IMG/VR virus record: IMGVR_UViG_3300010885_008872
Location: 1-31,334 of that record
Direction: 5' to 3' (one strand)
From: a virus
DNA: 31,334 bases
Position 1 is the stretch's first letter. Every line of letters starts with the position of its first letter. Positions 4,766 through 25,181 of the stretch are shown in pieces. The notes under the pieces were generated by a model. That model did not search any database. It was given only the letters and a program-made list of their open reading frames with translations, and had not been told where the DNA came from. Position numbers and translations under genes: made by a program.

Positions 4766-4768
4766 CCA

Positions 4769-4909: not shown

Positions 4910-4965
4910 TGAGTTATAAATTTATAATGTTATATTGCCAATGTTTTTAGCAAATAATTGATGGG

Positions 4966-6827: not shown

Positions 6828-7966
6828 ACATATACTTAAAAGAAAATGTGTGGGTAGCTGCTCAAAAAAGGGTTGCATGGATTTTTGACGAGTTTGAAAA
6901 TGTAGCGGTAGGGATGAGTGGTGGGAAAGATTCTACCATAGTTTACGAGTTGGCATTGATTGAAGCTGAAAAAAGGGGTAGACTTCCATTAAGTGTATTT
7001 TGGCTTGACCAAGAAGCCGAATGGAAAAACACCGAGTACTATGTTAAAAAGGTAATGTACGACAAAAGGGTTAATCCTATGTGGATGCAGATACCTTTTA
7101 AAATAAACAATGCTACAAGCCATACAACTGAAAACTTAAACATTTGGGGTGCGGGGGAGGAATGGATGAGAGAACAAGACCCGTTATCTTTTAAAGAGAA
7201 TGTTTACGGCACTAACGATTTTTACGATTTATTCAATGCTATCATAGGGTATCATTTTAAAGGCAAACGATTTGCACTATTAGGTGGGTTAAGAACTGAA
7301 GAATCTCCAACACGATTTATAGCTTTGACGGGTGCGATTACTTACAAGCATGTTACTTGGGGGAAAATCTTAAATAAGAAACAAGACCATTATACTTTTT
7401 ATCCTATTTACGATTGGACTTATATGGACGTATGGAAAGCAATCTATGATAACAATTGGGACTATAATAAGATTTACGATTACATGTATCAGCATGGCTA
7501 CCCCGTTCGTGACATGAGAGTTAGTAACTTGCACCATGAAACGGCAATCAAGCATTTATTGTTTATGCAAGAAATAGAACGGGAAACATGGGTAGCACTT
7601 TCAAAACGATTACAAGGGATAAACACAGTTAAACATTTATCTAAAGCGTCAATGACTTGTCCCGACAAATTACCCGAAGCGTTTGAATCATGGCTTGAAT
7701 ACCGAGATTACTTAAATGACAACCTTGTATCAGAACCGGTGACTCGGGCATTCTTTAACCATAAATTTGAAATGATGGAGGAAAAATACATGGACATTAA
7801 GCACAAAGACGAAATGTACAAAGCACACATCAAAACTATATTAGTAAACGACAAAGAATTTACCAAGCTTGGCAATTGGGAGAACAACTTTGAAATAGTG
7901 GCATGGCGAAAATGGAAAAACAAAGGAGTACTACCACCCGTAAAAAACAAATACATACATGGATAA
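6824..7966 (+). CDS. IbrA-like PP-loop ATPase (PAPS-reductase family, DUF3440-like)
   Basis: The 380-aa protein carries the PP-loop MSGGKDST at residues 31-38, which binds ATP and releases pyrophosphate. A second family landmark is LLGGLRTEESPTR near residues 167-179. The C-terminal half has the look of DUF3440/IbrA proteins, and the next gene is its usual partner IbrB. The ECGxH signature of true sulfonucleotide reductases is absent, so it is probably not an assimilatory PAPS reductase but an adenylating or sulfur-handling enzyme. DndC of DNA phosphorothioation belongs to the same superfamily. It overlaps both neighbours by 4-8 bp. Confidence 0.75.
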   Translation: MNIYLKENVWVAAQKRVAWIFDEFENVAVGMSGGKDSTIVYELALIEAEKRGRLPLSVFWLDQEAEWKNTEYYVKKVMYDKRVNPMWMQIPFKINNATSHTTENLNIWGAGEEWMREQDPLSFKENVYGTNDFYDLFNAIIGYHFKGKRFALLGGLRTEESPTRFIALTGAITYKHVTWGKILNKKQDHYTFYPIYDWTYMDVWKAIYDNNWDYNKIYDYMYQHGYPVRDMRVSNLHHETAIKHLLFMQEIERETWVALSKRLQGINTVKHLSKASMTCPDKLPEAFESWLEYRDYLNDNLVSEPVTRAFFNHKFEMMEEKYMDIKHKDEMYKAHIKTILVNDKEFTKLGNWENNFEIVAWRKWKNKGVLPPVKNKYIHG

Positions 7967-8609
7967 CGTAAGACAATCAATCGAAACCTTCATAGGCAAA
8001 AACCCTATCGCAAACATAGAACTAATTAAAAGTTGGCTTTATGAACTAACCCCAATCAAACAACCTATCAGTTTTGTGAGATGGGTGCCTATCGAAAAAA
8101 TACAAGCTAACGATTACAACCCCAACTCGGTGGCATCGAAAGAAATGCAGTTGCTCTACACGTCTATTAAGCACGATGGGTATACTCAACCGATTGTAAC
8201 TATATACGACCAAGCCATAGACAAATACATCATTGTAGACGGCTTCCACCGATATTTTACTTGTAAAGCTAACCCCGACATACTCGAACGAAACTTCGGA
8301 TGCTTACCAATTGTCGTAATAGAGAAAGACATTAACGATAGAATGGCTGCAACCGTCAGACACAATAGGGCAAGGGGGGCACACTCGGTAACGGGAATGA
8401 GCAACATGGTTTTTGAAATGCTAAAGAATGGTTGGAAAGATTCCGATATTTGCAATGAACTTGGAATGGAACCCGAGGAACTATTAAGACTTAAACACAT
8501 AACGGGGTTTAGCAAACTATTCGCCAATAAAGAATTTAGTCCCGCATGGAAGACTATGACCATGATAAAACTTGAAAAACAATACGAAAAGAATGAGTGC
8601 AAATCATAA
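7959..8609 (+). CDS. IbrB-like ParB-domain protein, partner of the IbrA-like gene
   Basis: The 216-aa protein has a ParB-like domain at about residues 40-140: NDYNPNSVASKEMQLLYTSI, VDGFHRYF (residues 93-100) and ATVRHNRARGAHSVTGMSN. A helix-turn-helix follows (about 155-182: WKDSDICNELGMEPEELLRL). This matches the IbrB family, which is nearly always paired with IbrA. It overlaps the IbrA-like gene by 8 bp and the terminase small subunit gene by 17 bp. IbrAB were named as regulators of E. coli Ig-binding genes; in phages the role is unsettled. DNA binding is likely; nuclease action is possible. Confidence 0.75.
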   Translation: MDNVRQSIETFIGKNPIANIELIKSWLYELTPIKQPISFVRWVPIEKIQANDYNPNSVASKEMQLLYTSIKHDGYTQPIVTIYDQAIDKYIIVDGFHRYFTCKANPDILERNFGCLPIVVIEKDINDRMAATVRHNRARGAHSVTGMSNMVFEMLKNGWKDSDICNELGMEPEELLRLKHITGFSKLFANKEFSPAWKTMTMIKLEKQYEKNECKS

Positions 8610-8970
8610 CACAACTGAACACTATAAAAAAGCATTGCTTGAAGCATTGGAAAAAACGCTTGGGGTTGTTCAAGGTGCTTGTAAGATAGTAGGCATTAGC
8701 CGGACAACTTATTACCAATACTTAAAAGACGATGCTGAATTTAAAAAAGCCGTAGACGATATTGAAAACATAGCTTTGGACTTTGCCGAGTCTCAATTGC
8801 ATAAACAGATTCAAGAGGGGAATACAAGTGCTACAATATTTTTTCTAAAAACAAAAGGAAGAAACCGAGGATATGTAGAACGTCAAGAATTGACCGGCAT
8901 GAATGGACAACCGCTTTCAGTAAATATCAAAGTCATCAGAAACGAAGACGAAAGTGAATATCAGTCTTGA
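8593..8970 (+). CDS. terS: Terminase small subunit
   Basis: This 125-aa protein shows the terminase small-subunit pattern: an N-terminal helix-turn-helix (VQGACKIVGISRTTYYQYLK, about residues 24-43), a helical core (IENIALDFAESQLHKQIQEG) and TSATIFFLKTKGRNRGYVER. It recognises phage DNA and starts packaging with the large subunit. The ATG at 8593 (MSANHN) is preferred over an in-frame ATG at 8572 deeper in the ibrB-like gene. It overlaps the large subunit gene by 17 bp. Confidence 0.8.
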   Translation: MSANHNTTEHYKKALLEALEKTLGVVQGACKIVGISRTTYYQYLKDDAEFKKAVDDIENIALDFAESQLHKQIQEGNTSATIFFLKTKGRNRGYVERQELTGMNGQPLSVNIKVIRNEDESEYQS

Positions 8971-10165: not shown

Positions 10166-10185
10166 TATATTGTAAATTCAAAATA
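10166..10185 (+). promoter_or_regulatory. Operator-like palindrome O3 over promoter P3
   Basis: TATATTGTAAATTCAAAATA matches the shared consensus with two differences and covers the -33 box, 26 bp before the -7 box, exactly as at P2 and P5. Confidence 0.5.
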
Positions 10186-10199
10186 TAGTTGTATCCTTG
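10169..10199 (+). promoter_or_regulatory. Early-type promoter P3
   Basis: A -33 ATTG at 10169-10172 and -7 TATCCTTG at 10192-10199 are 19 bp apart; both boxes depart by one base from TTTG/TAnnTTTG. The -7 box ends 4 nt before the ATG at 10204, giving a leaderless start as at P1 and P2. No gene covers the 86 bp before this gene's ATG. Confidence 0.65.
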
Positions 10200-11089: not shown

Positions 11090-11109
11090 TATATTGTAAA
11101 TGTAAAATA
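11090..11109 (+). promoter_or_regulatory. Operator-like palindrome O4 over promoter P4
   Basis: TATATTGTAAATGTAAAATA matches the consensus with three differences, two of them in the right half, so it may be the weakest site. It covers the -33 box of P4, starting 27 bp before the -7 box. Confidence 0.45.
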
Positions 11110-11124
11110 TAGTAGGTATGTTTG
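11093..11124 (+). promoter_or_regulatory. Early-type promoter P4
   Basis: A -33 ATTG at 11093-11096 and -7 TATGTTTG at 11117-11124 are 20 bp apart. The ATG at 11146 is 21 nt after the -7 box, so the transcript has a short A-rich leader of about 17 nt. P5 at 30689 has the same 21-nt distance and a similar leader. Confidence 0.75.
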
Positions 11125-12255: not shown

Positions 12256-12280
12256 ATCTTGTGTGGGGTGGTGAATTGGA

Positions 12281-12306
12281 AAGGGGGCGTAATGCCCCTT
12301 TTTTTT
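12281..12306 (+). terminator. Rho-independent terminator after the small-gene run
   Basis: The stem GGGGC (12284-12288) and GCCCC (12294-12298) closes a GTAAT loop. It is flanked by AA and a run of eight T (12299-12306). It ends the early-type transcript 4 nt before late motif L1. Confidence 0.85.
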
Positions 12307-12309: not shown

Positions 12310-12338
12310 TGTAACAAATCAGACCTATGCAGTTTTAT
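12310..12338 (+). promoter_or_regulatory. Late promoter motif L1 (tail module)
   Basis: TGTAACA at 12310-12316, 14 nt, AGTTTTAT at 12331-12338, 4 nt, then the ATG at 12343. The two boxes and all spacings are the same in four places in this genome, always before structural genes. The TTTA of the second box is within 1 bp of where the -7 TTTG lies in the leaderless early promoters, so the start of transcription should be at or near the ATG. Confidence 0.65.
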
Positions 12339-12342
12339 TAAT

Positions 12343-13035
12343 ATGAACAAGTCTATTGTAGTCCCATCAAATTTAAAAGACATAACTTTATTTCAGTTTT
12401 TAGAATACGAATCATTGCCCGAAAACTTATCAGACAATGACCGGGCAATACAGACTATATCTATATTTTGCCAATTGACTACCGCAGAGGTAAAAAAACT
12501 ACCCATTAAAGTTTTACAAGAGGCATTGCTAAAAATATCTAATGCTATTTCAGAAGAACCTAAATTAGAGCCTACGTTCAATTTTAATGGAGTAGACTAT
12601 GGGTTTATACCGAACTTGGATAATATGTCAACTGCGGAGTTTATTGACATCGAGAACTATCAAAAAGAACGCAAAGACCTATACAAACTTATGTCAGTCT
12701 TATACAGACCGATTACAATTAAAGAAGGTAAGCGGTATGACATTGAAAGCTACGATGGGAAAATAACAGAAGACTTCGAAGAGATACCAATGTATCATGT
12801 CAAATCAGCTATGGTTTTTTTTTGCAATTTAGGAATCGACTTAATCAGTTATATACAGAAGTCTTTAGCGGAGCAGAGTCCGAAGGACTTGCAAATGCGG
12901 GAGTTACAAGTTTTGCTAAAAAGTGGGGGTGGTTTGGATTCATTTATGGACTATGTAAAGGGGACATCCTTAAATCTTCTGACGTGGTCAAACTCCCTAT
13001 CCACAAAACACTATTGTGGCAATCTTACGAATTAG
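12343..13035 (+). CDS. Tail assembly chaperone-like protein (frame 0)
   Basis: This 230-aa protein starts MNKSIVVPSNLKDITLFQFL at the ATG set by late motif L1. The plan (ITLFQFLEYESLPENLSDND, FCQLTTAEVKKLP, then VLYRPIT and AMVFF) matches a family found in the tail region of many Bacteroidota phages, which I take to be the tail assembly chaperone. Codons 156-160 read through nine T (12815-12823), and a second open frame follows at -1 (12822-13085), as in the lambda G/GT system. The 71 codons after the T run are open in both frames. It is not next to the tape measure gene, which is unusual for a chaperone. Confidence 0.55.
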   Translation: MNKSIVVPSNLKDITLFQFLEYESLPENLSDNDRAIQTISIFCQLTTAEVKKLPIKVLQEALLKISNAISEEPKLEPTFNFNGVDYGFIPNLDNMSTAEFIDIENYQKERKDLYKLMSVLYRPITIKEGKRYDIESYDGKITEDFEEIPMYHVKSAMVFFCNLGIDLISYIQKSLAEQSPKDLQMRELQVLLKSGGGLDSFMDYVKGTSLNLLTWSNSLSTKHYCGNLTN

Positions 13036-13085
13036 ACCTACAAGAAATACAAAGACAAGAAATACAAAAAAATGCAACCAAGTAA
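12822..13085 (+). CDS. -1 frame extension of the tail chaperone (candidate frameshift product)
   Basis: The 87-codon frame contains FAKKWGWFGFIYGLCKGDIL followed by VVKLPIHKTLLWQSYELDLQ, a well-ordered, protein-like sequence. It has no ATG at all; its only upstream start is a TTG inside the T run with no A-rich leader. The heptamer T TTT TTT at 12816-12822 in frame 0 allows a -1 shift, giving a fusion of about 247 aa. Transcriptional slippage on nine T would do the same. A miscounted T in the assembly would fuse the frames permanently and is the main alternative. Confidence 0.55.
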   Translation: MQFRNRLNQLYTEVFSGAESEGLANAGVTSFAKKWGWFGFIYGLCKGDILKSSDVVKLPIHKTLLWQSYELDLQEIQRQEIQKNATK

Positions 13086-13566
13086 AAACCATATAGGAAC
13101 TATCATAAAGTTATTCCAAGACATTGCCGGGGAAATGAACGCAAGGTTTAGTCATGGCAACCAAACGGAAACCAACAAGCACTCAATGTTAGTTTACCCT
13201 TACATCCATATAAACATAGATAGTATTGCGGTGGGCGAAGTATTATCTAACGTAAGCGTAAACATGGACTTATCAGATAGGGTAAATGTAATTACTAACG
13301 AAAACCAAGGACTTGATGAGTCGGTGCTTTATTCAGCTATTGGTTATACTGAAAATAATAACTATGCAATGGTCTTACAACAATTGTATGCAGACTTTTC
13401 GATTGCTTTTAAAAAATACGAGATGCAATACTTTAATAGTATCAGCATTCAAAAACCATTCAACCTTACGTCATACATTGAAACTGAAAGTGACGTGTTA
13501 GCCGGTTTTACCACAACCTTCAATATAGAAATTGTAAACCCTATAGTTACAGATGGATTTTGCTAA
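13072..13566 (+). CDS. Putative tail-terminator or neck protein
   Basis: The 164-aa protein has a mixed alpha/beta pattern. After an N-terminal helix comes MLVYPYIHINIDSI, then paired strands through VSVNMDLSDRVNVIT. A helix with MVLQQLYADFSIAFKKYE and a strand-rich end, TTTFNIEIVNPIVTDGFC, follow. This resembles tail-terminator or head-tail joining proteins of Bacteroidota phages. It overlaps the chaperone extension by 14 bp and the next gene by 14 bp. The call rests on position and fold impression. Confidence 0.45.
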   Translation: MQPSKNHIGTIIKLFQDIAGEMNARFSHGNQTETNKHSMLVYPYIHINIDSIAVGEVLSNVSVNMDLSDRVNVITNENQGLDESVLYSAIGYTENNNYAMVLQQLYADFSIAFKKYEMQYFNSISIQKPFNLTSYIETESDVLAGFTTTFNIEIVNPIVTDGFC

Positions 13567-14107
13567 TACAGATAAATCGTTAAAAAAAATGACCGAATAC
13601 TTCGCAGAGCAAATGCGGATAAATCTTGGTGCAAAAGTAAAACGTAAATCTTATCGCAGTTCTTGGAAAAATGGTAAGCCTTATAATACCCGAGTTAAAA
13701 CTTTTACCGCTTCGCATTCCGCAAGTGGTGGCTTAATAAACTCAATACAAGTATTTAAATCAAACCAAGGCTATGCAGTATCGATTGCTAAATATGGCGA
13801 ATATATAAATGATGGTAGACAAAAAGGTAAAGGTATTCCAATTGCTAAAATGGATGCTTGGATAAGACAAAGAAGATTAAAACCAAGAAACTTAAATACC
13901 GGTGCCTTTATCAAAAACACACCACAAAATAGAAAGGCTATGGGTTTTATGATGAATAGAAAGATTAAGTATTTTGGTATGGAAGCATTTCCTTTTATAA
14001 AAATGTCTCGTGAATCTACTTTATACATGTTTAAAGGACAAATCAAAAATTCACTTAAAAAAGATATCTATAACAATTTAGGTATAAAATTCAAACAAAA
14101 AAAATAA
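13553..14107 (+). CDS. HK97 gp10-like neck/tail-completion protein
   Basis: The 184-aa, strongly basic protein contains YGEYINDGRQKGKGIPIAKM near residues 76-95, like the Y-x-x-x-x-x-x-G-T-x-x-x-P region of gp10-like neck proteins. A C-terminal basic helix follows. Such proteins line the join between head and tail. The family call is tentative. It shares 1 bp with the following structural gene. Confidence 0.5.
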   Translation: MDFANTDKSLKKMTEYFAEQMRINLGAKVKRKSYRSSWKNGKPYNTRVKTFTASHSASGGLINSIQVFKSNQGYAVSIAKYGEYINDGRQKGKGIPIAKMDAWIRQRRLKPRNLNTGAFIKNTPQNRKAMGFMMNRKIKYFGMEAFPFIKMSRESTLYMFKGQIKNSLKKDIYNNLGIKFKQKK

Positions 14108-15231
14108 TGGCAATAACTATAATTCAGCAACCGGCAAGTATAAAAGGGGCGTTAAGTTCCATGATTTACCAAACAGAAGATTCAGCCAACTCGGGTAAAG
14201 ATGGGTTTTACTACGAATATAAGATTTACGTTTGGAATGGAGCATCTACAATCCCCGCTACCCCAATAGCAACTATCCAAAGATTGCCGGACGTGTATGC
14301 AAACAATCGTAGCTTTATTGACATAAGCAAAATAGCTACCCAATATATTCAAGACGAATGGTTTACTATTGGAACGGCTAACCCTTACATTAGTTTTGGG
14401 TCTGTTTATTGCGTAGTGAAAATTCAAGGTTTTTGGTATGTTGCGGGAGTACTTACAAATGACTCACAAGTTACATCTAACACGATATTAGCTACCAAGG
14501 GGTATGAATACACGTTAGAAGGATTTAATCAAACTACAACTAAACGTATTCTTTCAAGCCGTACAAAAGTTTATCTTACCGAAGATACGACTTACGATTA
14601 CTTATGGTACGATGCTACTAAAATAACTACCATCACAATAGGTGCGACAACTATAACTCCTACTGCGGTAGTGACAAGCCATAATTATATCCAATCAATA
14701 GAACTACGGGATAAATTAACCATTGCCGGGTTATGGGGGACAAACTGCAATATAGTATTTAATTACTCGGGAGGTTCGGAAACTATCGAAGTAATATTCC
14801 AATGCGTAAATAAGTACGGATGCAATACCTTGTTTTATAAAAACAGATACGGGGTAATTGAATCTTTGTCTATGAACGCATTATCGAGAATATTCATGAC
14901 AACCACTAACGAAAATTACTACAAAGGTATTTATGCTCAATCGAACATGGCTGAAGCATGGAGTTACGGGGTGCGTAGTAAATCTTTATATAACGTCCAA
15001 GGCATATATAAACAATTAGCTAATACCAATTGGATAGACGAAAGTTATGTTGAAATCATACAACAGATTTTATTAAGTACAATTTGCTACACGATTTACA
15101 ATAGCACCATTTATGCTTGTCAAGTTACCGATACTGCATTAGAAAAGAAAACTTACCGAAACGATAAGCTTATAATGTATTCCTTAAATTTTGAATTTGC
15201 CCAACCTTTAATCAATAGTATAGTTCGATAA
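14107..15231 (+). CDS. Putative virion (tail) structural protein
   Basis: This 374-aa protein is beta-rich and low in charge, with many Thr, Ile, Tyr and Asn residues (GYEYTLEGFNQTTTKRILSS, IFQCVNKYGCNTLFYKNRYG), as expected for a tail or baseplate component. It begins 1 nt before the previous stop and ends in a 1-nt overlap with the 878-aa tail protein, a pairing that suggests the two act together at the tail tip. Confidence 0.5.
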   Translation: MAITIIQQPASIKGALSSMIYQTEDSANSGKDGFYYEYKIYVWNGASTIPATPIATIQRLPDVYANNRSFIDISKIATQYIQDEWFTIGTANPYISFGSVYCVVKIQGFWYVAGVLTNDSQVTSNTILATKGYEYTLEGFNQTTTKRILSSRTKVYLTEDTTYDYLWYDATKITTITIGATTITPTAVVTSHNYIQSIELRDKLTIAGLWGTNCNIVFNYSGGSETIEVIFQCVNKYGCNTLFYKNRYGVIESLSMNALSRIFMTTTNENYYKGIYAQSNMAEAWSYGVRSKSLYNVQGIYKQLANTNWIDESYVEIIQQILLSTICYTIYNSTIYACQVTDTALEKKTYRNDKLIMYSLNFEFAQPLINSIVR

Positions 15232-17867
15232 TGTTATATTTTAGCTTAACAATAGATGGGAAATTGGTAGACTTGTATGCGGATGAATCGATGCAATTAA
15301 ACCGACAAGTTAAAGACTACACTAACATTGCAACTGTTTTTACCGATTTTAGCAAGTCTTTTAATATCCCCGCTACCGATTTGAACAACTCAATATTTCA
15401 AAACTTTTTTGACGAGAATGTATTGCTTCAAAGTTGGAATCAAAACTATGCGTTAAATTCACAAATCTTTGTGCATGGGTTACCGGTCTTCAATGGAGTG
15501 GTAGAATTGTTGGAAGTTAAATTTACCAATGGACTACCAAGCGACTATTCAATAGTATTCTATGGTCAAGGTAAAAATATTATGGTAGGGTGGGGAGAAC
15601 AAACGCTACCCGAATTGGATTGGAGTGCTTATAACCATACTATATCAAATGCAATTGCAGTATCTTCATGGAGTGGTGGGTTATTAAGTGGTAAGGTAAT
15701 GTGGGACTTAAAAGACTATGGGTACGGGATAACTTACTCTACTTATAATACTACAAACAATATTTACAAGTCTGATAATTTTAGTTATTTGAATTTAAGA
15801 CCTTCGATTTTATTGAAAGAAATGGTGCAAAATATATTCTTACAACAAGGGTACGAATTAGCGGGTACGTTACTTGCAAGACCCGAGTTTACGAATCTAT
15901 ATGTAACTCCGATGAATACAGCCGGTCCTTTTTTAGACTTACAAAATGGCACTACTTTCGGAAATTTTAGTGCTAATAATAATACGGCACAAGCTATTGT
16001 CGGAACGAGTACTACGTTGGCTACATGGAATATTCTACCAATAGGAAATACAATAACAAGCGGGAATATTAGCGGAGCATGGAATACGTCTTTATATGAA
16101 TATGTCATACCTCAAAATGGAAATTATACTTTTGTTATAGATATAACGTCTTGGACGGGGAATTCTCAAATTACGATAAGACCAAGTCATAAAGGAAAAA
16201 ATACGGGTAGTCAAATTACGTTTGTAGGTAGTAGTGGAACTCAAACTTTAGCATTAACCAATTTATCTAAAGGAGACATATTTAAAATAGCGTACAGATG
16301 TGCTAATAATGGAACTATCAATGGTTCTATATCGTGTATCAATTCCCCGGCTACCATATTGCCTAATGTTATAATGGGAGACGCAATGCCCGAAATCAAA
16401 GTATCTGATTTTTTTGATAGCTTTTTGAAATGCTACAATGCTATTATAGTCCCTAAATCTTATACAAGTTTCGAACTTTATAATTTAGAAGATTGGTATG
16501 CGTTAGGTCAAAATGTGGAATATACTGAATTTATAGATTTCAAAACATTAACTCATAAAAAGATGCCAATACCTACAATAGTAAATATGGCACATGAAAA
16601 AGGCGAAACATTGCCACAAATCTATTTCAATGACTCTTATTCAAGACAATTTGGGAGTGTTACTTTTAAACCCGAAGTAGATTTTGCTGAAAATGAGTTT
16701 AACATTAAGACATTGTTTTCAGTCAACCCTCCCGTAATCATTCGACAAATTAACCAAAATGGTGTAGTCATAAATGATACTGATTTAGAAATCCCGGCTA
16801 TTTACGATAAAGATGCTAAAGCGGTAAATCAAAAACTTATACTATTTTATTATAATGGAATCGTATCTACCAATTATAGCTATTATTTTGGGACTACTCA
16901 ATATTCAAGTTATCCTAAAACAAGTTCATTTAGTGGAATAACTACAAATAGTTACGCTTTGTCGTTTGGATTGGAAGCTAATCGAATAGGAGACATGCCT
17001 AAAAAAACTTTATACTTTCAATTTTGGCATAATTATATATCAAGGATGTATAGCACCCGTTCAAGAATTGTTATAGTAAATGCAGTACTTCCCGTAGGCG
17101 TATGGCTAAACATGAAACTAAATGACAATGTTGCAATAAGTGGCAACTATTATAAGATTCAAAAAATAACGTATGACTTATTAAGCCAAAAAGCGGTCAT
17201 AGAACTTATGACGTATCCTTTAGTGAATGTTTTATCAGTTACCTCGACAAATGGCAAGAAGCCAATATTTGACACTCCAATAGATATAAATAAAAACAGA
17301 ACTTTTATCAATGGCACTCCCGTAAAAAAAGGGTTAGGAAATGCAATATATGACGGCACAACATTTTTAACTAATGGGTTAGATATTCCTAATTTTAACC
17401 AAGGATTAGCTTTTCAATTTATGACTTTAAGAGATAATTATATCCCAACTTTATCTTTGAATAAATTATCTTTATGGAGAACTACAAGCATATCAGTTGT
17501 TTTTGCTACAACTCCTATTGCTATTCCATTAACTGATATTGGTTTTGAAGGGGACGATAGTTATTATGCCGGTGACCTTGCAAATAGTCAAACAACTATT
17601 AATTCAGATGGGCAATACCGATTTAGAGCAACTACCATAATAGACGTTACGGGAGGTCATCATGTAGGGGTAGGCATTTATATAAATGGAATTGAAACCG
17701 AAGCATATTCAGAAATACATGCAAACGTATTAAGTACGCTGACGATAAACGGAAGTTCTTCGATTGGTAAAGGAGACATTATAAAATTAAGAGCATTTTG
17801 TGTGGATGGGGGTAGCCACTCTTTAAATGTGACTCGTGCAAATTTGATAGTAGAAAGAATAATATGA
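15231..17867 (+). CDS. Large tail/baseplate protein
   Basis: The 878-aa protein has an N-terminal segment (about residues 8-55) with VDLYADESMQLNRQVKDYTN and then FSKSFNIPATDLNN, a pattern of large tail proteins in Bacteroidota phages. Its long middle is rich in beta-strand and Asn/Ser/Thr. The last about 125 residues (from near FATTPIAIPLTDIGFEG) read like a jelly-roll C1q/TNF-type head domain, often used for trimerisation or receptor contact. It may be a baseplate hub or receptor-binding protein. It sits just upstream of the tape measure gene. Confidence 0.6.
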   Translation: MLYFSLTIDGKLVDLYADESMQLNRQVKDYTNIATVFTDFSKSFNIPATDLNNSIFQNFFDENVLLQSWNQNYALNSQIFVHGLPVFNGVVELLEVKFTNGLPSDYSIVFYGQGKNIMVGWGEQTLPELDWSAYNHTISNAIAVSSWSGGLLSGKVMWDLKDYGYGITYSTYNTTNNIYKSDNFSYLNLRPSILLKEMVQNIFLQQGYELAGTLLARPEFTNLYVTPMNTAGPFLDLQNGTTFGNFSANNNTAQAIVGTSTTLATWNILPIGNTITSGNISGAWNTSLYEYVIPQNGNYTFVIDITSWTGNSQITIRPSHKGKNTGSQITFVGSSGTQTLALTNLSKGDIFKIAYRCANNGTINGSISCINSPATILPNVIMGDAMPEIKVSDFFDSFLKCYNAIIVPKSYTSFELYNLEDWYALGQNVEYTEFIDFKTLTHKKMPIPTIVNMAHEKGETLPQIYFNDSYSRQFGSVTFKPEVDFAENEFNIKTLFSVNPPVIIRQINQNGVVINDTDLEIPAIYDKDAKAVNQKLILFYYNGIVSTNYSYYFGTTQYSSYPKTSSFSGITTNSYALSFGLEANRIGDMPKKTLYFQFWHNYISRMYSTRSRIVIVNAVLPVGVWLNMKLNDNVAISGNYYKIQKITYDLLSQKAVIELMTYPLVNVLSVTSTNGKKPIFDTPIDINKNRTFINGTPVKKGLGNAIYDGTTFLTNGLDIPNFNQGLAFQFMTLRDNYIPTLSLNKLSLWRTTSISVVFATTPIAIPLTDIGFEGDDSYYAGDLANSQTTINSDGQYRFRATTIIDVTGGHHVGVGIYINGIETEAYSEIHANVLSTLTINGSSSIGKGDIIKLRAFCVDGGSHSLNVTRANLIVERII

Positions 17868-18010
17868 TAACTGAAATAATAAGATTGAGTCAATCTAACA
17901 AATGGTGCGGAGTTTCTGAAAACGTAGAAATCGCAAAAGGAAAATATAAAAAGGTTTACACTTGGACGCAATTATTTAAATTAATGAAAAGAACATGTCT
18001 GAAAAAATAG
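17864..18010 (+). CDS. 48-aa hypothetical protein before the tape measure
   Basis: An ATG at 17864 overlaps the previous stop (ATGA) and the frame runs to a TAG at 18010, 16 bp into the tape measure gene. The peptide MITEIIRLSQSNKWCGVSEN, then KGKYKKVYTWTQLFKLMKR, is basic. A short gene just before tape measure would be a natural place for a small tail chaperone, but no family was recognised. Confidence 0.5.
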   Translation: MITEIIRLSQSNKWCGVSENVEIAKGKYKKVYTWTQLFKLMKRTCLKK

Positions 18011-19836
18011 AATATGAAGTAGATTTAGATACTTCCAAAGCCAAAAAAGGCTTTGACGAAATGGGTAAGTCTGCTAAAAAAGTAGGTGCCGGATTGGATG
18101 ACGTTGCTGACAATGTCAAAGGAGTTGCGTCAGCTACAAATAAAGCTAAAAGTGGATTTACTTCATTAGGGACTATTATTAAAGGGGGTCTTGGATTAGG
18201 AATCGTTTTAAAATTATTTGATGCTTTAGTAAGTGCGTTCATGCAAAATGAAAAAGTAGCTAAATTATTTGAAGCTGCAATGAATGTAGTTACGGGGGTA
18301 ATCAATGGACTTGTTGAAGTTATCACACCCGCTATAGATTGGATGATGAAACTATTCAAAGACCCTAAAGTATGGTGGGATGACCTTGTCAATAGTCTTA
18401 AAAAAGGTGGGGAATGGATAAAAACAAACCTTATAGATTTAGTCCTTAATAAGTTTGTCATTTGGGCTAACGATGCGAAGATTGCCGTTTTAATGCTTCG
18501 TAAAGCATGGAATGAATTTACGGGGGATACTGAAGAAGCCGAAACAATCCAAAAAAGAATAGACGAATTACTAAAACAAAACATAGAGTTAGCTAAAGCA
18601 AATGCTGAAAAAGTTGAAAACATTAAAGAGGTAGTAAAAGACGTAGTGGCATTCGTTGAAAAAGCGGTAGACACTATTGCTAAAAATGTTAAAAAGGTTA
18701 CCGACAACCAAGACTTTTTATTGAACTACGAAAAAAACCTTGCCCGGTTACAAAGGGCATTACAAAAAGTTTCGACACAAGCGGAAATCGATGCTGAAAA
18801 ACAAAGACAAATTAGGGACAATGAAAACGTAGCAATACAAGAACGTATTAAAGCAAACGAAGACCTTGCGTTAGTACTTGAAGCAAACAAACAAAAAGAA
18901 TTAGATGCTCAAAATGCTATCATTGCTCAAATGCAAACTAAAGCATCTATTTTTAAAAATAATGCGGAAATAAGAAATCAAATAGAAGACGAAAAACTTA
19001 AACTATTAGAAATTGAAAACAAATATACCGGTCAAGCATCTGAACAATTAACTAATATCAATAGCTTAAACAAAGAAGCATTGGACATTCAGAAGACATT
19101 GACCGATGCTAAACTTGAAGCATTAACCATTGAACAAGAATCTGCATTAGAGTCCATTAGAATCGAATCTGAAAAGATTTCGGCTCAAATGCGATTAGAG
19201 GATGACCTTTACAATAGAAAAAAACAAAACCTTGACGATGAATTAGCAAATGTCAAAGAAGGAACGGCAGCTTACGCAGAAATACAAGCACAAAAACTAA
19301 CGCTTGACGTTGAACACAATGCTAAAGTTTTGGAGTCAACACGAAATTTAAATAAAGCACTATCAGAAGAAAATTCACAAAGACTTGATGCAGTAAAAGG
19401 GTTATTTAATGGTATAGGTGCGTTAGTAAAACAAAATAGTAAAACTGCAATAGCAATGCAAATTGGTAGTGCGGTTATAGATACATTTGTAGCTGCGAAC
19501 AAAGCTTTGGCATCTGCCCCACCGCCTTTTAACTTTATCTTGATGGGTGGTGTTATAGCCGGGGGGTTAGCAAACATTAAAAAAATCTATGACCAATCAA
19601 GAAAAATGGGAGTGGATACGGGTGGGGATGCAAGTGCGGGTGGTGGAGCGACTCCTTCAATGTCCGGTCCTTCAATTGGAATTGTAGGCGGTCAAGTTAA
19701 TAGCGGGACACAATTACAAAATGCTATCAATGGTGCAATGAATAAACCTCAAAAGAATTATGTAATAGGCTCTGACGTTACGTCACAACAAGGCCTTGAT
19801 AGAAAAATTACTCAAAATGCAACACTTGGCGGTTAA
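17995..19836 (+). CDS. Tail tape measure protein
   Basis: The 613-aa protein has the tape measure layout: a charged N-terminus with SAKKVGAGLDDVADNVKGVA, a hydrophobic stretch (LGTIIKGGLGLGIVLKLFDA, about residues 57-77), long coiled coils (about 195-470, rich in Glu, Lys, Ala and Leu), a second hydrophobic segment (PPPFNFILMGGVIAGGLANI near 512) and a Gly/Ser-rich end. It sets tail length and enters the cell with the DNA. By the usual ratio of about 0.15 nm per residue a tail of roughly 90 nm is expected, which fits a siphovirus; no sheath gene is seen. Confidence 0.85.
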   Translation: MSEKIEYEVDLDTSKAKKGFDEMGKSAKKVGAGLDDVADNVKGVASATNKAKSGFTSLGTIIKGGLGLGIVLKLFDALVSAFMQNEKVAKLFEAAMNVVTGVINGLVEVITPAIDWMMKLFKDPKVWWDDLVNSLKKGGEWIKTNLIDLVLNKFVIWANDAKIAVLMLRKAWNEFTGDTEEAETIQKRIDELLKQNIELAKANAEKVENIKEVVKDVVAFVEKAVDTIAKNVKKVTDNQDFLLNYEKNLARLQRALQKVSTQAEIDAEKQRQIRDNENVAIQERIKANEDLALVLEANKQKELDAQNAIIAQMQTKASIFKNNAEIRNQIEDEKLKLLEIENKYTGQASEQLTNINSLNKEALDIQKTLTDAKLEALTIEQESALESIRIESEKISAQMRLEDDLYNRKKQNLDDELANVKEGTAAYAEIQAQKLTLDVEHNAKVLESTRNLNKALSEENSQRLDAVKGLFNGIGALVKQNSKTAIAMQIGSAVIDTFVAANKALASAPPPFNFILMGGVIAGGLANIKKIYDQSRKMGVDTGGDASAGGGATPSMSGPSIGIVGGQVNSGTQLQNAINGAMNKPQKNYVIGSDVTSQQGLDRKITQNATLGG

Positions 19837-19846
19837 TTCGTTTTAT
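19818..19846 (+). promoter_or_regulatory. Late promoter motif L4 (start of head module)
   Basis: TGCAACA at 19818-19824, 14 nt, CGTTTTAT at 19839-19846, 4 nt, then the ATG at 19851. Each box differs by one base from the copies at 12310, 20752 and 23044, but the spacings are identical. The first box lies within the last codons of the tape measure gene. Confidence 0.55.
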
Positions 19847-19850
19847 CAGT

Positions 19851-20156
19851 ATGCAAAAGAAAGGCTTTAGTTTAAATATGTCTGTTTTTTCAGATATGGA
19901 AGAAACTGCAAAAAAAATCAATTCATTTAAAGACGATTTACAAAGTGGTCTTGATTCAATTGAAGCGGGTAAAAAAATGGTTCAAAGTGTTTATACAAAA
20001 ACATTTCCCGAAAAAAACAAACTTGATGTATTGATTAATAAAGCAAAAGCCTTGGCAAATGAACTTGGGGTAGAACTTAAATCAAATCCTATAGTATTGG
20101 GTGCAGTGGATTTATTTGATGTAATAGACGAAAGCAATATTAAGTACAAAAAATAA
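19851..20156 (+). CDS. Hypothetical protein at the start of the head module
   Basis: This 101-aa helical protein starts MQKKGFSLNM at the ATG fixed by late motif L4; an internal ATG at 19878 is an alternative. Helices such as MEETAKKINSFKDDLQSGLD and LINKAKALANELGVELK make up most of it. It overlaps the prohead protease gene by one base. The position suggests a head assembly factor. No family was recognised. Confidence 0.55.
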   Translation: MQKKGFSLNMSVFSDMEETAKKINSFKDDLQSGLDSIEAGKKMVQSVYTKTFPEKNKLDVLINKAKALANELGVELKSNPIVLGAVDLFDVIDESNIKYKK

Positions 20157-20764
20157 TGCAAATACTTGAACTCATATTAGACGAGCAACAAATTGCAAGT
20201 GGCATTGATGCTATCAGTATAGTTCAATCTCCCGCCATTGAATCTAATTTTATAGCTTTGAATAACCACAAAGTAAAATTTGCTACATTGGATTCAGAAA
20301 AACGTATTTTGTTAGGTCCGGCATTGATTCCTAATAAACCAATCTACCGCAAACAAGACGGCATGGAATTTTATTGTTACTTTACAAGGGCAACAGTTAA
20401 AAAAGCAAGTGAACTTTATTTGCAAAGGGGTAATCAAAATCAAGCCACATTAGAACACGCAGTTAAAATACAAGGACTATGTCTTATAGAGTCATGGGTT
20501 AAAGAAGATATGGCAATGGACAAATCTTGCATGTATGGAATGACTGACCCAATTGGAACTTGGATGGTAGCTATGAAAGTTGAAAATGATGAAATATGGA
20601 ATGAGTACGTTAAAACGGGACTTGTTAAAGGTTTTTCAATTGAAGGATATTTCGTGGATAAAGGTAAAGTGGCTATGGCTTCACAACCTAAACACGAAGA
20701 TAAAATTGCTAATGTAATCGACATTTTAACCGAATACATGCAAACTAAAAATGTAACAGATTAA
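20156..20764 (+). CDS. Prohead maturation protease (XkdF/S78-like)
   Basis: The 202-aa protein shows the phage XkdF-type serine protease plan: RILLGPALIPNKPIYR at about residues 50-65, ATLEH with candidate catalytic His101, GLCLIESW near 107-114 and VKGFSIEGYF with candidate nucleophile Ser161. It would cleave scaffold and capsid precursors inside the prohead. The neighbouring scaffold and capsid genes confirm the context. Its 3' end contains the upstream box of late motif L3, so scaffold and capsid can be transcribed without it. Confidence 0.8.
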   Translation: MQILELILDEQQIASGIDAISIVQSPAIESNFIALNNHKVKFATLDSEKRILLGPALIPNKPIYRKQDGMEFYCYFTRATVKKASELYLQRGNQNQATLEHAVKIQGLCLIESWVKEDMAMDKSCMYGMTDPIGTWMVAMKVENDEIWNEYVKTGLVKGFSIEGYFVDKGKVAMASQPKHEDKIANVIDILTEYMQTKNVTD

Positions 20765-20780
20765 TTAATTAAAGTTTTAT
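20752..20780 (+). promoter_or_regulatory. Late promoter motif L3 (scaffold and capsid)
   Basis: TGTAACA at 20752-20758, 14 nt, AGTTTTAT at 20773-20780, 4 nt, then the ATG at 20785. The two boxes are identical to L1 and L2. The first box overlaps the last codons of the protease gene. This would allow extra expression of the scaffold and major capsid protein, the products needed in greatest amounts. Confidence 0.65.
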
Positions 20781-20784
20781 AAGT

Positions 20785-21417
20785 ATGAACGCAGAAACAA
20801 CATTAGACAGAGTTATGGTTGCTTTAGGAATAAAGCAAAAAGAAACTCCATCAATAAAAGTAGAATTGGAAATAATGAAAACTTTGGATGGTCAAGCAAC
20901 ATTTGATGCGGACACTTACGAAGTTGGTTCTCCAATCTTTGTAGTTACCCAAGACGGAAACATTCCCGTTCCTATGGGCGAATATCAAATGGAAGATGGG
21001 TCAGTAATTTCAGTAGACGATAAAGGCTACATTGCAGAAATCGCAACTATGGAAGAAGAAACTGCACCCGAAGAAGAAATGATGCAAAACGCCCCTATGA
21101 AAGAAGCAACCGGCAAACCAACTGCGGGAGAACCTCCAATGGACATGGCAAAACCTAAAAAATTAACCGAGTCTATGATTAAAACAACTGAATATTCAGC
21201 TGAAATTTCAGACTTGAAAAAAGATTTTGAAGCATTGAAATTGAAATTAAGTTCTATTGCGGACGAGAATGCTGAATTGAAAAATAGACTTGCGACTGAA
21301 GAAGCACCAAGAACTCATTTTTCTCCCGAAAGCAAAGTTCAAAAACAAAATTTCCAACTTGGAAATCGTAGAGAAGAAAACACTACTGACAGAGTATTCA
21401 AACAACTATTTAGCTAA
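20785..21417 (+). CDS. Capsid scaffold protein
   Basis: The 210-aa protein sits between protease and major capsid genes. It has an N-terminal beta-rich part (TLDGQATFDADTYEVGSPIF, then a repeat-like MEDGSVISVDDKGYIAEI), an acidic, Met/Pro-rich linker (ETAPEEEMMQNAPMKE), a coiled coil at about residues 135-172 (ISDLKKDFEALKLKLSSIAD) and a basic C-terminus. This is the usual scaffold plan: a flexible acidic body with a basic tail that contacts the capsid protein. The start follows late motif L3. Confidence 0.75.
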   Translation: MNAETTLDRVMVALGIKQKETPSIKVELEIMKTLDGQATFDADTYEVGSPIFVVTQDGNIPVPMGEYQMEDGSVISVDDKGYIAEIATMEEETAPEEEMMQNAPMKEATGKPTAGEPPMDMAKPKKLTESMIKTTEYSAEISDLKKDFEALKLKLSSIADENAELKNRLATEEAPRTHFSPESKVQKQNFQLGNRREENTTDRVFKQLFS

Positions 21418-21427
21418 TAAAAAAGAA

Positions 21428-22345
21428 ATGAAAAATTTAAAAAATATCAATTTATCCGGTCCTACAATAAGTCCTAATACTTATGCCGGTCAGTTTGGTG
21501 GCAAATATATAGCCGCTGCACTATTAAGTGGCGAAACACTTGCCAAAGATTTAATCACGTTACACCCAAATGTAGCTTACAAAGAAGTTATCAGAAATTG
21601 GCAGAACACAGTTGCCGTAGTAGATGCTACGTGTGACTTCGTAGATTCAAGTTCAATATCTCTTGGTGAGTACGTTTTGACTACAACAGAAAAACAAGTA
21701 AACTTGGTGTTATGTAAAAATAACTTGAGAACAACTTGGGAAGCTGCACAAGCCGGTTTTTCTGCATTTGAAAATTTACCCGCAACATTTGAAGAGTTTT
21801 TGTTGGCTCAAGTAGCTTCGGAAGTTGCTCAAACAGTTGAATTAGGTATTTGGAAAACTAACACATTTTATACCGGTGGTATGGTTCAGTATCTTATTGA
21901 CCAATCGTCAATCGTAAGACCATTTACGGGTGCTACAACGGGTACTAACGTAGTTGCTCGTTTACAAGAAGCATTGGATTATTCTCCAAGTGCATTGTAT
22001 GGCAAAGAAGGTTACCAATATTATGTAGGACCGGGAACTATGAAAGCTTACCAAGCTGCGTTATCAGCCGGTAACTTCAATTTCCAATTCTATGTTGGCG
22101 AAAAACCAATGAACTTCCAAGGTATCCCCGTTACTATGTGTCCGGGTCTTAACGACTTTGATTGCGTATTAGGTTTGAAATCAGACTTACACTTTGGTAC
22201 GGGTTTATTAGCCGACTACAACGATGTTAAAGTACTTGACATGGCTGATTTAGATGGTTCACAAAACGTAAGAATTATCATGCGTTTTACGGGTGGTATC
22301 ATTGCAACCAATCCGGCTCAACAAGTTGTAATTAATGTTACCTAA
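21428..22345 (+). CDS. Major capsid protein (HK97-fold)
   Basis: The 305-aa protein starts at ATG 21428 (MKNLKNINLSGPTISPN), 10 nt after the scaffold stop with an A-rich leader; a longer in-frame opening begins at 21290 inside the scaffold gene and is rejected. Low charge, many Ala/Gly/Thr, a long spine-like helix (FEEFLLAQVASEVAQTVELG) and a P-domain-like end (GIPVTMCPGLNDFDCVLGLK) fit the HK97 fold, as does the position after protease and scaffold. Only a short N-terminus precedes the core, so cleavage of a large delta domain is unlikely. A terminator follows at 22371. Confidence 0.85.
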   Translation: MKNLKNINLSGPTISPNTYAGQFGGKYIAAALLSGETLAKDLITLHPNVAYKEVIRNWQNTVAVVDATCDFVDSSSISLGEYVLTTTEKQVNLVLCKNNLRTTWEAAQAGFSAFENLPATFEEFLLAQVASEVAQTVELGIWKTNTFYTGGMVQYLIDQSSIVRPFTGATTGTNVVARLQEALDYSPSALYGKEGYQYYVGPGTMKAYQAALSAGNFNFQFYVGEKPMNFQGIPVTMCPGLNDFDCVLGLKSDLHFGTGLLADYNDVKVLDMADLDGSQNVRIIMRFTGGIIATNPAQQVVINVT

Positions 22346-22370
22346 TCAATAACAAAATAGCAAATTCATA

Positions 22371-22398
22371 AAGGGTGGGTAATGCCCACCTTTTTTTT
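22371..22398 (+). terminator. Rho-independent terminator after the major capsid gene
   Basis: The stem GGTGGG (22374-22379) and CCCACC (22385-22390) with a TAATG loop is followed by eight T (22391-22398). It shares the TAATGCCC word with the terminator at 12281. It lies between the capsid and tail-tube-like genes, where it would lower downstream expression. Confidence 0.85.
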
Positions 22399-22419
22399 AA
22401 ACTTTAAATAAATAATAAA

Positions 22420-22977
22420 ATGGCTTGTAATACAATAGACGCTCGTTTAGAGCCTTGCAAAGAATACCTTGGTGGGATACAAGGAATGTTTTTAATCCCA
22501 TTCGTCTTTACAGATTTGGTAGCGGTAGACGGCACGGGTGCGGTAAGTAAAATTTCCGAAAGTGACGGCACTACTTTAAAAACCGGTTTCTTTTGGGAAT
22601 TGAAAGGTGCTTCATCATTTGCAGACACTATTACTTCATCAAGAGATAATGGCACAACTTTCCATGAATCTACATTAATGGTTAAATTCAAACCTAAATC
22701 CCCGGCAACCCCTTGGTTAGACGTTAAGGACGTTGAAACTTTGGCTACGGGACGTTGGAGAATTGTAGTTTGGGATAGAAACGATAACTTTTGGTTATTG
22801 GGCGAAGAGTACGGATGCGATGTAGCAACCGGTACTGAAGATTGGGGCGTAGCTTTAGGAGATTCAAGAAGTTACACTTTGAATTTTCTTGCACAAGAAA
22901 AATTTGGGCCTCGTCCATTAGCTTCAATTACTTATGCGGGATTAAGTACAATTTTTACCGCTGACGTGACTCCATAA
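22420..22977 (+). CDS. Putative major tail tube protein
   Basis: The 185-aa protein contains GGIQGMFLIPF near its start, ELKGASSFADTITSSRDNGT near residues 65-84, STLMVKFKPKSP, and WRIVVWDRNDNFWLLGEEYG near 107-126. The last, a strand with W-L-L-G-E-x-x-G, is typical of tail tube proteins of Bacteroidota phages. It lies inside the head module rather than by the tape measure gene, flanked on both sides by terminators. No separate late motif is visible upstream, so it probably depends on read-through from L3. Confidence 0.65.
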   Translation: MACNTIDARLEPCKEYLGGIQGMFLIPFVFTDLVAVDGTGAVSKISESDGTTLKTGFFWELKGASSFADTITSSRDNGTTFHESTLMVKFKPKSPATPWLDVKDVETLATGRWRIVVWDRNDNFWLLGEEYGCDVATGTEDWGVALGDSRSYTLNFLAQEKFGPRPLASITYAGLSTIFTADVTP

Positions 22978-23010
22978 TAAAATTCAATTCTGTTCGGTAT
23001 ATTAAGGTAG

Positions 23011-23036
23011 AAAGGGGTGCAATTGCACCCTTTTTT
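23011..23036 (+). terminator. Rho-independent terminator after the tail-tube-like gene
   Basis: The stem GGGTGC (23015-23020) and GCACCC (23025-23030) with an AATT loop is flanked by AAAG and a six-T run. It ends 7 nt before late motif L2, the same order (terminator then late motif) as at 12281-12338. Confidence 0.85.
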
Positions 23037-23043
23037 ATTTATC

Positions 23044-23072
23044 TGTAACAATAAAGAGGTTTATAGTTTTAT
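23044..23072 (+). promoter_or_regulatory. Late promoter motif L2 (portal operon)
   Basis: TGTAACA at 23044-23050, 14 nt, AGTTTTAT at 23065-23072, 4 nt, then the ATG at 23077. Similarity to L1 extends beyond the boxes (TCTGTAACAA, an AGA at the same place, and AGTTTTATTA). Confidence 0.65.
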
Positions 23073-23076
23073 TATT

Positions 23077-23415
23077 ATGAATATCGATAGTCTTTCTACT
23101 CAAATATCATTTAGACCTTTGATTGCTTTTGACGGCAATCAAGTCAATTTGATTGTAGAGCATAAAGCAACTAAAACAAAAATGACTCTTTTGCAGACAC
23201 CTACAATAAGTGGAACTAAAGTCATTTTATTATTACCGGTATTATCGACTTTAAATATTAAAGAAAAAGACGAATTACTTTTTAGAGTTATTCAAAACAA
23301 TATTCTTTTATTTGAATATTTAGGATACTACATCAATGGTTCTTTATCTGAATATAGAGAATGGAAACAATGGGATACTACAACAAACAATAGCAAGGAG
23401 TGGGTTACGTTATGA
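23077..23415 (+). CDS. Hypothetical structural protein before the portal
   Basis: This 112-aa protein starts MNIDSLSTQISFRPLIAFDG at the ATG set by late motif L2. It is beta-rich (NLIVEHKATKTKMTLLQTPT, VILLLPVLSTLNI, then LLFEYLGYYI), which suggests a small beta-sandwich. It is joined to the portal gene by a 4-bp ATGA overlap, so coupled translation is likely. It may be a head-tail connector or decoration protein, but no family was recognised. Confidence 0.55.
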   Translation: MNIDSLSTQISFRPLIAFDGNQVNLIVEHKATKTKMTLLQTPTISGTKVILLLPVLSTLNIKEKDELLFRVIQNNILLFEYLGYYINGSLSEYREWKQWDTTTNNSKEWVTL

Positions 23416-25181
23416 GTAAAAAATTATATGTCGTAAATATGGCAAGTTACACAAGTCCAAGTGTAACTGAAGAAAAAACTAAAGATTGGGTTCAGTATGG
23501 GGGGGATAATAATTACTATCAATATTTAATAGACCTTTATTATAGTTCTCCAACAAACAATGCTTGTATCAAAGGTAAATCTGATATGGTCTTTGGCTAT
23601 GGACCGGAAGTGGTAAGGGGAGACCGACATTTAAAAGGGTACTTGGATTTTAAAATGTTATTTGCTAACGAACAAGTTAAAAAAGCTACTATGGATTTAG
23701 TAATGCTTGGCATGTGTGCTTTCCAACTTGTTAAATCTAAAGACGGCAAAAAATATGCAAAGGCTTATCATTTTCCAATCCAAACTTTAAGACCTCAAAA
23801 AGCTAACGATAAAGGCGAAATAGAAAAATGGTATTATTGTGCTGATTGGTCTAAATTAAAACGTAGCGAAAAACCTCAAGAGTTTTCTGCGTTTGGATTT
23901 GACGATAATGATAAAGAGTGCATGATGGTAATTAAGCCATATAGCACCGGTTCGTTTTATTTTAGTCCCCCGGACTACCAAGGGGGTACTCAATATTGCG
24001 AACTTGAAGGCGAAATATCAAACTACCACATTAACGGCATAAAGAATGGATTAGCACCAAGCATGTTAATTAACTTTAACAATGGCGAACCTTCAGAAGA
24101 AATAAAAGACGCTATTGAGGGGCAAATAAACGCTAAATTCAGCGGTTCTTCCAATACGGGACGTGCCATAATATCTTTTAACGATAGTAAAGAACAAGCT
24201 GCGGATATTACTCCCGTTCAATTATCTGATGCAGCACAACAATATCAATTCTTGTCGACTGAATGTGTAGATAAAATATTGCTTTCGCACCGCATAACAA
24301 GTCCTTTAATTTTTGGTATTAAAAATACCGGTAATGGGTTTTCAAGTAATGCCGAGGAATTAAAAACTGCAACTATTTTATTTGATAATCTTGTTGTAAG
24401 ACCTTTCCAAAGTATTTTAATCGATTGTTTTAATAAAGTCTTATTGGCAAATGGATTCATGCTTGAAATTTATTTCAAGACATTGCAACCATTGGAGTTT
24501 ATTGATTTAAGCGGTAAAAATTTAGATGCTACCACAAAAGAAAAAGAACTTGGATTGTCATTATCTAAAATAGAAATGACTGAACAAGATGAAGACGAAT
24601 GGATAGTCCATTTATCTGATAAAGGGGAAGTTATTGATGAAAACGAATGGGACATTGTGGACGTGCGTGAAGCTACCGAAGAAGATGACCAACTTGAATT
24701 AGCATTTGATAGTCCCGACTTGAAATCTAAAGACGATAAAGGTATTTTTAAAATTAGATATAAATATGGACCGGATACTACCAACCCTCATTCAAGAAAA
24801 TTTTGTAAAGAAATGGTTTCATTGACCGGGCAAGGTATTGTATATAGAAGAGAAGATATAAATCAAATGTCGTTTAGCGGTGTCAATGGGGAGTTTGCAC
24901 CAAATGGACGTAGTACCTATAGCATTTGGAGATTTAAAGGCGGTGTGAATTGCCACCACGCTTGGTATAGGGTAACTTATATGCGTAAGACAATCAAAGG
25001 TGCTTTTAAACCATTAACAAGTGCTGAAAAAGGAACTGACATTAGAGAAATGGAAAATTATGATAAGGTAAGTAATGCAAAAGCTAACATTGAGGGTGTG
25101 CCTTTTGCACCGCCAAGTTGGAATGATGCCAAAACTAAACCTATCGACATGCCTAACCATGGTAGCTTAAAGAATAAATAG
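23412..25181 (+). CDS. Portal protein with C-terminal extension
   Basis: The 589-aa protein begins MSKKLYVVNMASYTSPSVTE. The portal body (about residues 1-385) contains LIDLYYSSPTNNACIKGKSD, GLAPSMLINFNNGEPSEEIK, and the crown/stem segment SHRITSPLIFGIKNTGNGFS with VVRPFQSILIDCFNKVLLAN. It would form the dodecameric ring for DNA entry. An acidic linker follows, then an extra domain (about 443-545) with FCKEM near residue 463 and CHHAWYRV near 512, a Cys/His pattern that may bind metal or belong to a minor-head-like domain. The ATG at 23412 is preferred over an opening at 23400. Confidence 0.8.
   Translation: MSKKLYVVNMASYTSPSVTEEKTKDWVQYGGDNNYYQYLIDLYYSSPTNNACIKGKSDMVFGYGPEVVRGDRHLKGYLDFKMLFANEQVKKATMDLVMLGMCAFQLVKSKDGKKYAKAYHFPIQTLRPQKANDKGEIEKWYYCADWSKLKRSEKPQEFSAFGFDDNDKECMMVIKPYSTGSFYFSPPDYQGGTQYCELEGEISNYHINGIKNGLAPSMLINFNNGEPSEEIKDAIEGQINAKFSGSSNTGRAIISFNDSKEQAADITPVQLSDAAQQYQFLSTECVDKILLSHRITSPLIFGIKNTGNGFSSNAEELKTATILFDNLVVRPFQSILIDCFNKVLLANGFMLEIYFKTLQPLEFIDLSGKNLDATTKEKELGLSLSKIEMTEQDEDEWIVHLSDKGEVIDENEWDIVDVREATEEDDQLELAFDSPDLKSKDDKGIFKIRYKYGPDTTNPHSRKFCKEMVSLTGQGIVYRREDINQMSFSGVNGEFAPNGRSTYSIWRFKGGVNCHHAWYRVTYMRKTIKGAFKPLTSAEKGTDIREMENYDKVSNAKANIEGVPFAPPSWNDAKTKPIDMPNHGSLKNK

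Follow-up and report, generated by a model that had tools for sequence, protein, structure and literature searches.

The window analysed here is the whole of the IMG/VR virus record IMGVR_UViG_3300010885_008872, an AT-rich phage sequence of 31,334 bases whose identical 123-base ends (1–123 and 31212–31334) indicate a closed genome of 31,211 bp. An end repeat of 123 bases also occurs in the relative G003. The late region of the window holds tail, tape-measure, head-protease, capsid-position and portal genes, and among them stand four exact copies of a two-box element, TGYAACA-N14-MGTTTTAT-N4-ATG, all on the plus strand, which we consider as candidate late promoters read by a sigma factor that the phage itself appears to encode. 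P1 spans 12310–12338 (−35-like TGTAACA, 12310–12316; −10-like AGTTTTAT, 12331–12338; ATG 12343), P2 spans 19818–19846 (TGCAACA, 19818–19824; CGTTTTAT, 19839–19846; ATG 19851), P3 spans 20752–20780 (TGTAACA, 20752–20758; AGTTTTAT, 20773–20780; ATG 20785), and P4 spans 23044–23072 (TGTAACA, 23044–23050; AGTTTTAT, 23065–23072; ATG 23077), each with 14 nucleotides (nt) between the boxes. The leader genes, all on the plus strand, are a 230-residue tail-block gene (12343–13035; its match, phrog_32199, assigns no function), a 101-residue gene (19851–20156) followed by the head maturation protease (20156–20764), a 210-residue probable scaffold (20785–21417) that aligns with the C-terminal portion of the protease-scaffold profile phrog_24921 and precedes the capsid-position gene, and a 112-residue gene (23077–23415) followed by the portal (23400–25181). 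An initial annotation of this DNA had described four copies with exactly this spacing and 4 nt to the ATG, heading the tail, head, scaffold/capsid and portal blocks; the copies are exact at those positions, and the tail, protease, scaffold/capsid and portal assignments were confirmed.

That annotation had noticed no further copy before a gene, and no fifth site appeared: with up to three mismatches allowed on both strands, the full pattern still gave four matches, whereas shuffled sequences averaged 0.28 and had at most 2. Copies at chance frequency or on the minus strand, which it had named as a sign against a promoter class, were sought in the same scan, and all four matches were on the plus strand. 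When the ATG was dropped from the pattern, up to three mismatches gave 17 matches vs. 9.4 expected, namely the four perfect sites and 13 sites with three mismatches each. A position weight matrix built from relatives’ sites, with the window sites held out, scored the four copies at 21–23 bits and the next best site on either strand at 13.1 bits; random genomes drawn from a second-order Markov model contain 0.22 sites of at least 14 bits per strand. The −10-like box was absent from positions −12 to −5 of all other window gene starts checked. Two generic searches of the window added little: a sigma-70 promoter scan found 76 sites vs. 78.5 in shuffles and was uninformative, and the motif did not rank in an unbiased search for ATG-anchored 4-mer dyads, for which four copies are too few. 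The same dyad search gave a clear motif only in Nonlabens phage P12024L and a partial one in several relatives.

The elements are conserved at the same genes in related phages. L005, the closest relative, whose portal is 84% identical, carries three exact copies in corresponding places with changed spacers. Phages whose sigma factor is 61–63% identical to that of the window have, in their longest records, four or five copies, on the coding strand only and none on the reverse strand. At about 30–60% protein identity, relatives still keep the boxes, the 14-nt spacing, the register between box and ATG and the same leader genes, while the spacers diverge. A matrix scan of 12 genomes or fragments placed the sites before the gene of the tail block, the protease or small gene that follows the tape measure, the scaffold and the gene ahead of the portal, with the ATG usually 4–7 nt past the box. 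Conservation in relatives, which the initial annotation had named as a check, was thus found at the level of individual leader genes. The boxes are only 7 and 8 bases long and the genome is AT-rich, as an origin in chance similarity or duplicated sequence would suit; such an origin is refuted by this conservation, which at orthologous genes reaches down to about 40–60% protein identity, runs against the expected count of 0.28, and would leave the differing spacers and flanks of the four copies unexplained, which show that they are not recent duplications. We regard it as wholly implausible.

In a non-redundant set of pre-portal promoters, the box columns carry about 1.1–2.0 bits, the first base of the −10 box 0.6 bits and the middle of the spacer 0.1–0.2 bits, and a terminator with a T-run usually lies directly upstream; the set was aligned on the boxes and illustrates conservation rather than testing it. 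In six relatives, an extra late-type site precedes a gene of about 90 residues (G003 at 4710, G005 at 10024, G032 at 17906, G034 at 10696, G044 at 15200 and G045 at 23807), and no late-type site corresponding to it was found in the window.

The DNA pattern by itself also leads back to this phage group. Scanning 2.9 million IMG/VR viral contigs with the bare pattern gave 82 stretches, and 62 of the 81 loci examined encode homologues of the structural or sigma proteins of the window phage. The remaining 19 have no such homologue and were treated as chance. The 36-base pattern alone is enough to single out this phage group among millions of contigs. At least 595 viral contigs match the portal of the window phage, which makes the group a large one.

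The surroundings of the four elements fall into two kinds, as the initial annotation had observed. P1 and P4 start a few bases behind intrinsic terminators on the plus strand (12278–12304, RNA hairpin of −15.4 kcal/mol, z = −3.5; 23008–23036, −18.0 kcal/mol, z = −4.8), and P2 and P3 overlap the ends of the tape-measure gene (stop at 19836) and the protease gene (stop at 20764), with no stable RNA fold at either. The −35 box of P2 (region 19818–19836) falls inside the final codons of the tape-measure gene (A-T-L-G-G-stop), where relatives have identical or similar residues, so that coding and promoter constraints overlap.

The window also offers a candidate reader of these elements. A plus-strand gene with a GTG start (2975–3556, 193 residues) encodes what is, judged by profiles and a predicted structure, a sigma factor of the extracytoplasmic function (ECF) type. 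Its product matches the NCBIfam sigma70-ECF family TIGR02937 over residues 6–161 (45.1 bits, cutoff 42.9), as do all 14 aligned members of the sigma family, and the PHROG sigma factor profile (3e-9). Among family members, Pfam matches go as far as 1.1e-8 (region 4) and 2e-4 (region 2). The AlphaFold2 (AF2) model, made from an alignment that omitted the sigma factor of Nonlabens phage P12024L (see below), has helices at 4–82 and 96–181 around a segment of low confidence (82–93), with a mean predicted local distance difference test (pLDDT) score of 79; this is the two-domain layout of an ECF sigma factor, with sigma2 and sigma4 joined by a flexible linker. All Foldseek matches in the PDB at E < 0.01 were ECF sigma factors, and the C-terminal domain superimposed on region 4 of E. 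coli sigmaE bound to −35 DNA (2h27) with a template modeling (TM) score of 0.88 by target, at 1.1 Å.

ECF promoters combine an AAC-containing −35 box with a CGT-type −10 box about 16 nt away. The late elements have an AAC-containing −35 box and a (C/A/G)GTTTT −10 box, with 15 nt from TGTAAC to the latter. Among 50 records searched for the sigma gene, all 13 relatives of at least 25 kb had it, and it was absent from all 14 tested pattern matches that lack homologues of the phage; most records are metagenomic fragments, and absence from short contigs carries little weight. Both in P12024L and in relatives, the gene is located upstream of the terminase and near the gene of a conserved small protein, which in the window is encoded on the plus strand at 3432–3851 (probable ATG at 3432, open reading frame called from 3399) with no function assigned. 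This small protein (GLGDTI...DCGC...RKEKLNKLF...) is conserved as far as gp37 of P12024L, whose gene bears that phage’s late motif. Two relatives have unusual sigma loci. The 62-kb viral contig IMGVR_UViG_3300043436_000818 (G051) has two matches to the sigma family (4504–4947 and 32615–33160) and the same portal type, and could represent two sigma factors in one phage or two joined genomes. In L224 (G053, 8158–8619), one in-frame TGA interrupts the otherwise open frame of the sigma homologue.

Early, non-structural genes are preceded by promoters of a different type, TTG-N19/20-TAnnTTTG, all on the plus strand. One, TTTG...TACATTTG (38–69, box from 62, ATG 4 nt past the box), recurs in the terminal repeat at 31249–31280 (box 31273). 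The others are TTTG...TATATTTG (4239–4269, box from 4262, ATG again 4 nt past the box), two with the box TATGTTTG (11094–11124, box from 11117; 30666–30696, box from 30689) and a probable one at 10168–10199 (box TATCCTTG, 10192–10199; ATG 10204). We tried and rejected the late sites as promoters of the Bacteroidota sigmaA type: none of the four carries TAnnTTTG with an upstream TTG. A weak host-type box, TATTTTTG, lies at 2963 just before the sigma gene; relatives lack a box there, so the sigma gene is more likely expressed from an early promoter upstream. This division between early and late promoter types fits a cascade from host sigmaA through the phage sigma factor to the late genes.

The early promoters share a further feature. 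An inverted repeat near TTTTGTAWWTACAAAA lies over the early −33 box at 37–52, 4238–4253, 10168–10183, 11092–11107 and 30665–30680, and the pattern occurs 10 times in the genome vs. 5.7 by chance, about a twofold excess. Judged by its position, it is possibly an operator that shuts off early transcription. Also in the early region, a gene resembling phosphoadenosine phosphosulfate reductase (6824–7966) adjoins ParB-like genes.

The distance from the late box to the start codon suggests where the RNA begins. Relative to the RNA starts mapped in Flavobacterium psychrophilum, the sigmaA box occupies positions −12 to −5 (PMC9723704). The late boxes, MGTTTTAT in the window and CGTTAATA in P12024L, lie at −12 to −5 from the ATG. 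Late promoters thus share with Bacteroidota sigmaA promoters the distance from box to presumed start, with both boxes different, and the late mRNAs are probably leaderless. The predicted RNA start is the A of the ATG itself; where 5–7 nt separate box and ATG, it may lie as much as about 3 nt further upstream. RNA starts in phage 7-11 lie 6–9 nt from the promoter element (PMC8948821), and these distances would fit the predicted late starts to within a few bases. The early promoters at 62, 4262 and 10192 also have the box 4 nt before the ATG. Of the mRNAs mapped in F. psychrophilum, only 5.5% are leaderless (PMC9723704).

A distance fixed at 4 nt might equally point to a translation-initiation signal or a structured 5′ mRNA element instead of a promoter. 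Bacteroidota do not depend on Shine-Dalgarno sequences, which gives this idea some room. Yet a translation signal should not be missing from the other gene starts checked, nor should its conserved part reach back to −33 across a fixed 14-nt spacer or sit directly behind terminators. A structured leader is also hard to reconcile with the lack of a stable fold at P2 and P3, and the same box stands about 20 nt from the ATG in some clades. We consider a role in translation or mRNA structure very unlikely.

More distant relatives bear on how sigma factor and motif are related. By portal, the nearest isolated phages are the Nonlabens phages P12024L and P12024S (34% identity), which have a flavobacterial host, and bacterial genome contigs with portal relatives came from Bacteroidota bins only. 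A megablast of the window against the phage collection gave no match and a tblastn with the window sigma gave nothing; the link to P12024L came via the portal. The aligned sigma sequences diverge too far to serve in a collection-wide scan. The P12024L protein gp35 has a Sigma-70 region 2 annotation and shares 21% identity with the window sigma. In this genome, the unbiased dyad search ranked AAACA...CGTTA first, with six copies and none on the reverse strand, and refinement gave AAAACAA-N14/15-CGTTAATA, usually followed by 4 nt and the ATG. Seven copies stand before annotated ATGs (gp01, gp05, gp08, gp37, gp42, gp45 and gp46), and the 8-base box again ends at −5. Further clades have their own pairs of boxes: TCAAACA/GGTTATTT, (A/G)TAACCA/GGTTTTAT and TACAAAA/CGTTATAT. 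Sigma factor and motif appear to diverge in parallel, which is consistent with sigma–promoter pairing.

Several observations weigh against the view of P1–P4 as leaderless late promoters served by the phage sigma. The window sigma falls below the Pfam gathering cutoffs for region 4 (19.7 vs. 24.1 and 18.4 vs. 25.7) and does not match region 2, a yardstick for annotation more than for function, so that its family assignment leans on NCBIfam, the fold and its relatives. Confidence in the placement of the two AF2 domains is low (predicted TM score 0.40), and full-length TM scores are only about 0.3–0.4. Leaderless initiation is not universal, for a gap of about 20 nt separates box and ATG in L206, L167, L168 and L198, which belong to distant clades; the same shift means that box and start codon are separable, which would be expected of a promoter but not of a translation signal. 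G002, whose sigma is 26% identical, shows its motif once only. Shared ancestry confounds the parallel divergence of sigma and motif, and the link between sigma factor and promoters is one of association.

This last point leaves some room for a different reader of the same promoters, either a host ECF sigma factor or a phage activator that binds TGYAACA, with the phage sigma-like protein serving another function. The flavobacterial hosts have several ECF sigma factors, and a CGT −10 box has been described in one of their promoter motifs (PMC9723704). However, the sigma gene occurs in every relative of at least 25 kb that was searched, the motif variants track the sigma variants, and the boxes are placed where an ECF sigma would contact DNA, whereas a host sigma would not account for motifs that differ between phage clades. 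We think such a reader unlikely.

The best-supported reading of the four elements, and in our judgment a highly probable one, is that they are phage-specific late promoters used by host RNA polymerase with the phage ECF-type sigma, and that transcription starts at or near the ATG. As a class, they head the same late operons in relatives, differ from the early promoters and follow terminators, in keeping with what the initial annotation had proposed; that annotation had named no sigma factor as the cause. In this scheme, the early genes, the sigma gene among them, would be transcribed by host sigmaA from promoters of the TTG...TAnnTTTG form. Once made, the phage sigma would bind TGTAACA (−35) through region 4 and MGTTTTAT (−10) through region 2, and would start the four late operons, of which two lie directly after terminators. 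RNA synthesis would begin at the A of the ATG or no more than about 3 nt from it, placing the leader gene of each late operon on a leaderless or nearly leaderless mRNA. Host sigmaA, phage sigma and late genes would thus form a cascade.

More broadly, it seems somewhat better than an even chance that a large lineage of Bacteroidota phages uses fast-diverging ECF sigma factors of its own, start-codon-locked promoters, leaderless late blocks and clade-specific sigma/promoter pairs. If so, the lineage would provide a natural set of mutually distinct pairs, which could serve as gene-expression tools in Bacteroidota, with P12024L as a cultured test system. A widespread and almost uncultured phage group would also gain a testable programme of late transcription with a named regulator and a precise promoter. 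Leaderless late mRNAs are predicted here for hosts in which only about 5% of mapped mRNAs are leaderless, in a phylum where mRNAs of this kind are rare. The prediction is relevant to the way in which ribosomes that make no use of Shine-Dalgarno sequences initiate on phage messages.

Sigma factors that are encoded by phages and have late promoters of their own are already known from phiEco32 and, with two boxes, from phage 7-11; the leaderless, Bacteroidota-wide form appears undescribed, and in the open-access literature we found no account of this late promoter system or of promoters in P12024L and P12024S. Those two phages (Inhavirus) are distant relatives with an isolated host and a gp35 annotated with Sigma-70 region 2, and the P12024L motif has the same register, but its boxes, its sigma and its seven copies differ from those of the window. 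Motif SM6 of F. psychrophilum, whose −10 region has a CGT box ascribed to ECF sigma factors (PMC9723704), comes from the same host class, but it marks a host regulon rather than a phage one. The phiEco32 sigma factor gp36, called ECF in a note to the 7-11 record, drives middle and late genes from single-element promoters (tAATGTAtA) and has no homology to region 4 (PMC8948821), whereas the window system has two elements and a clear region 4. Salmonella phage 7-11 has a phage-encoded sigma (SaPh711_gp47) with a region 4, bipartite late promoters (GTAAtg-16-aCTA) and host-type early promoters (PMC8948821). The boxes and the host phylum are different, and only in the window phage is the box fixed at the start codon; beyond the general fold, the two sigma factors share no usable similarity (BLASTP E = 0.13, hhalign probability 12%). 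Like the phiEco32/7-11 type, the window phage combines a phage sigma and a repeated motif before its late operons with host-sigma promoters before its early genes. As far as sequence comparison can tell, its system works like the late sigma type of phiEco32 and 7-11, placed outside that phage family.

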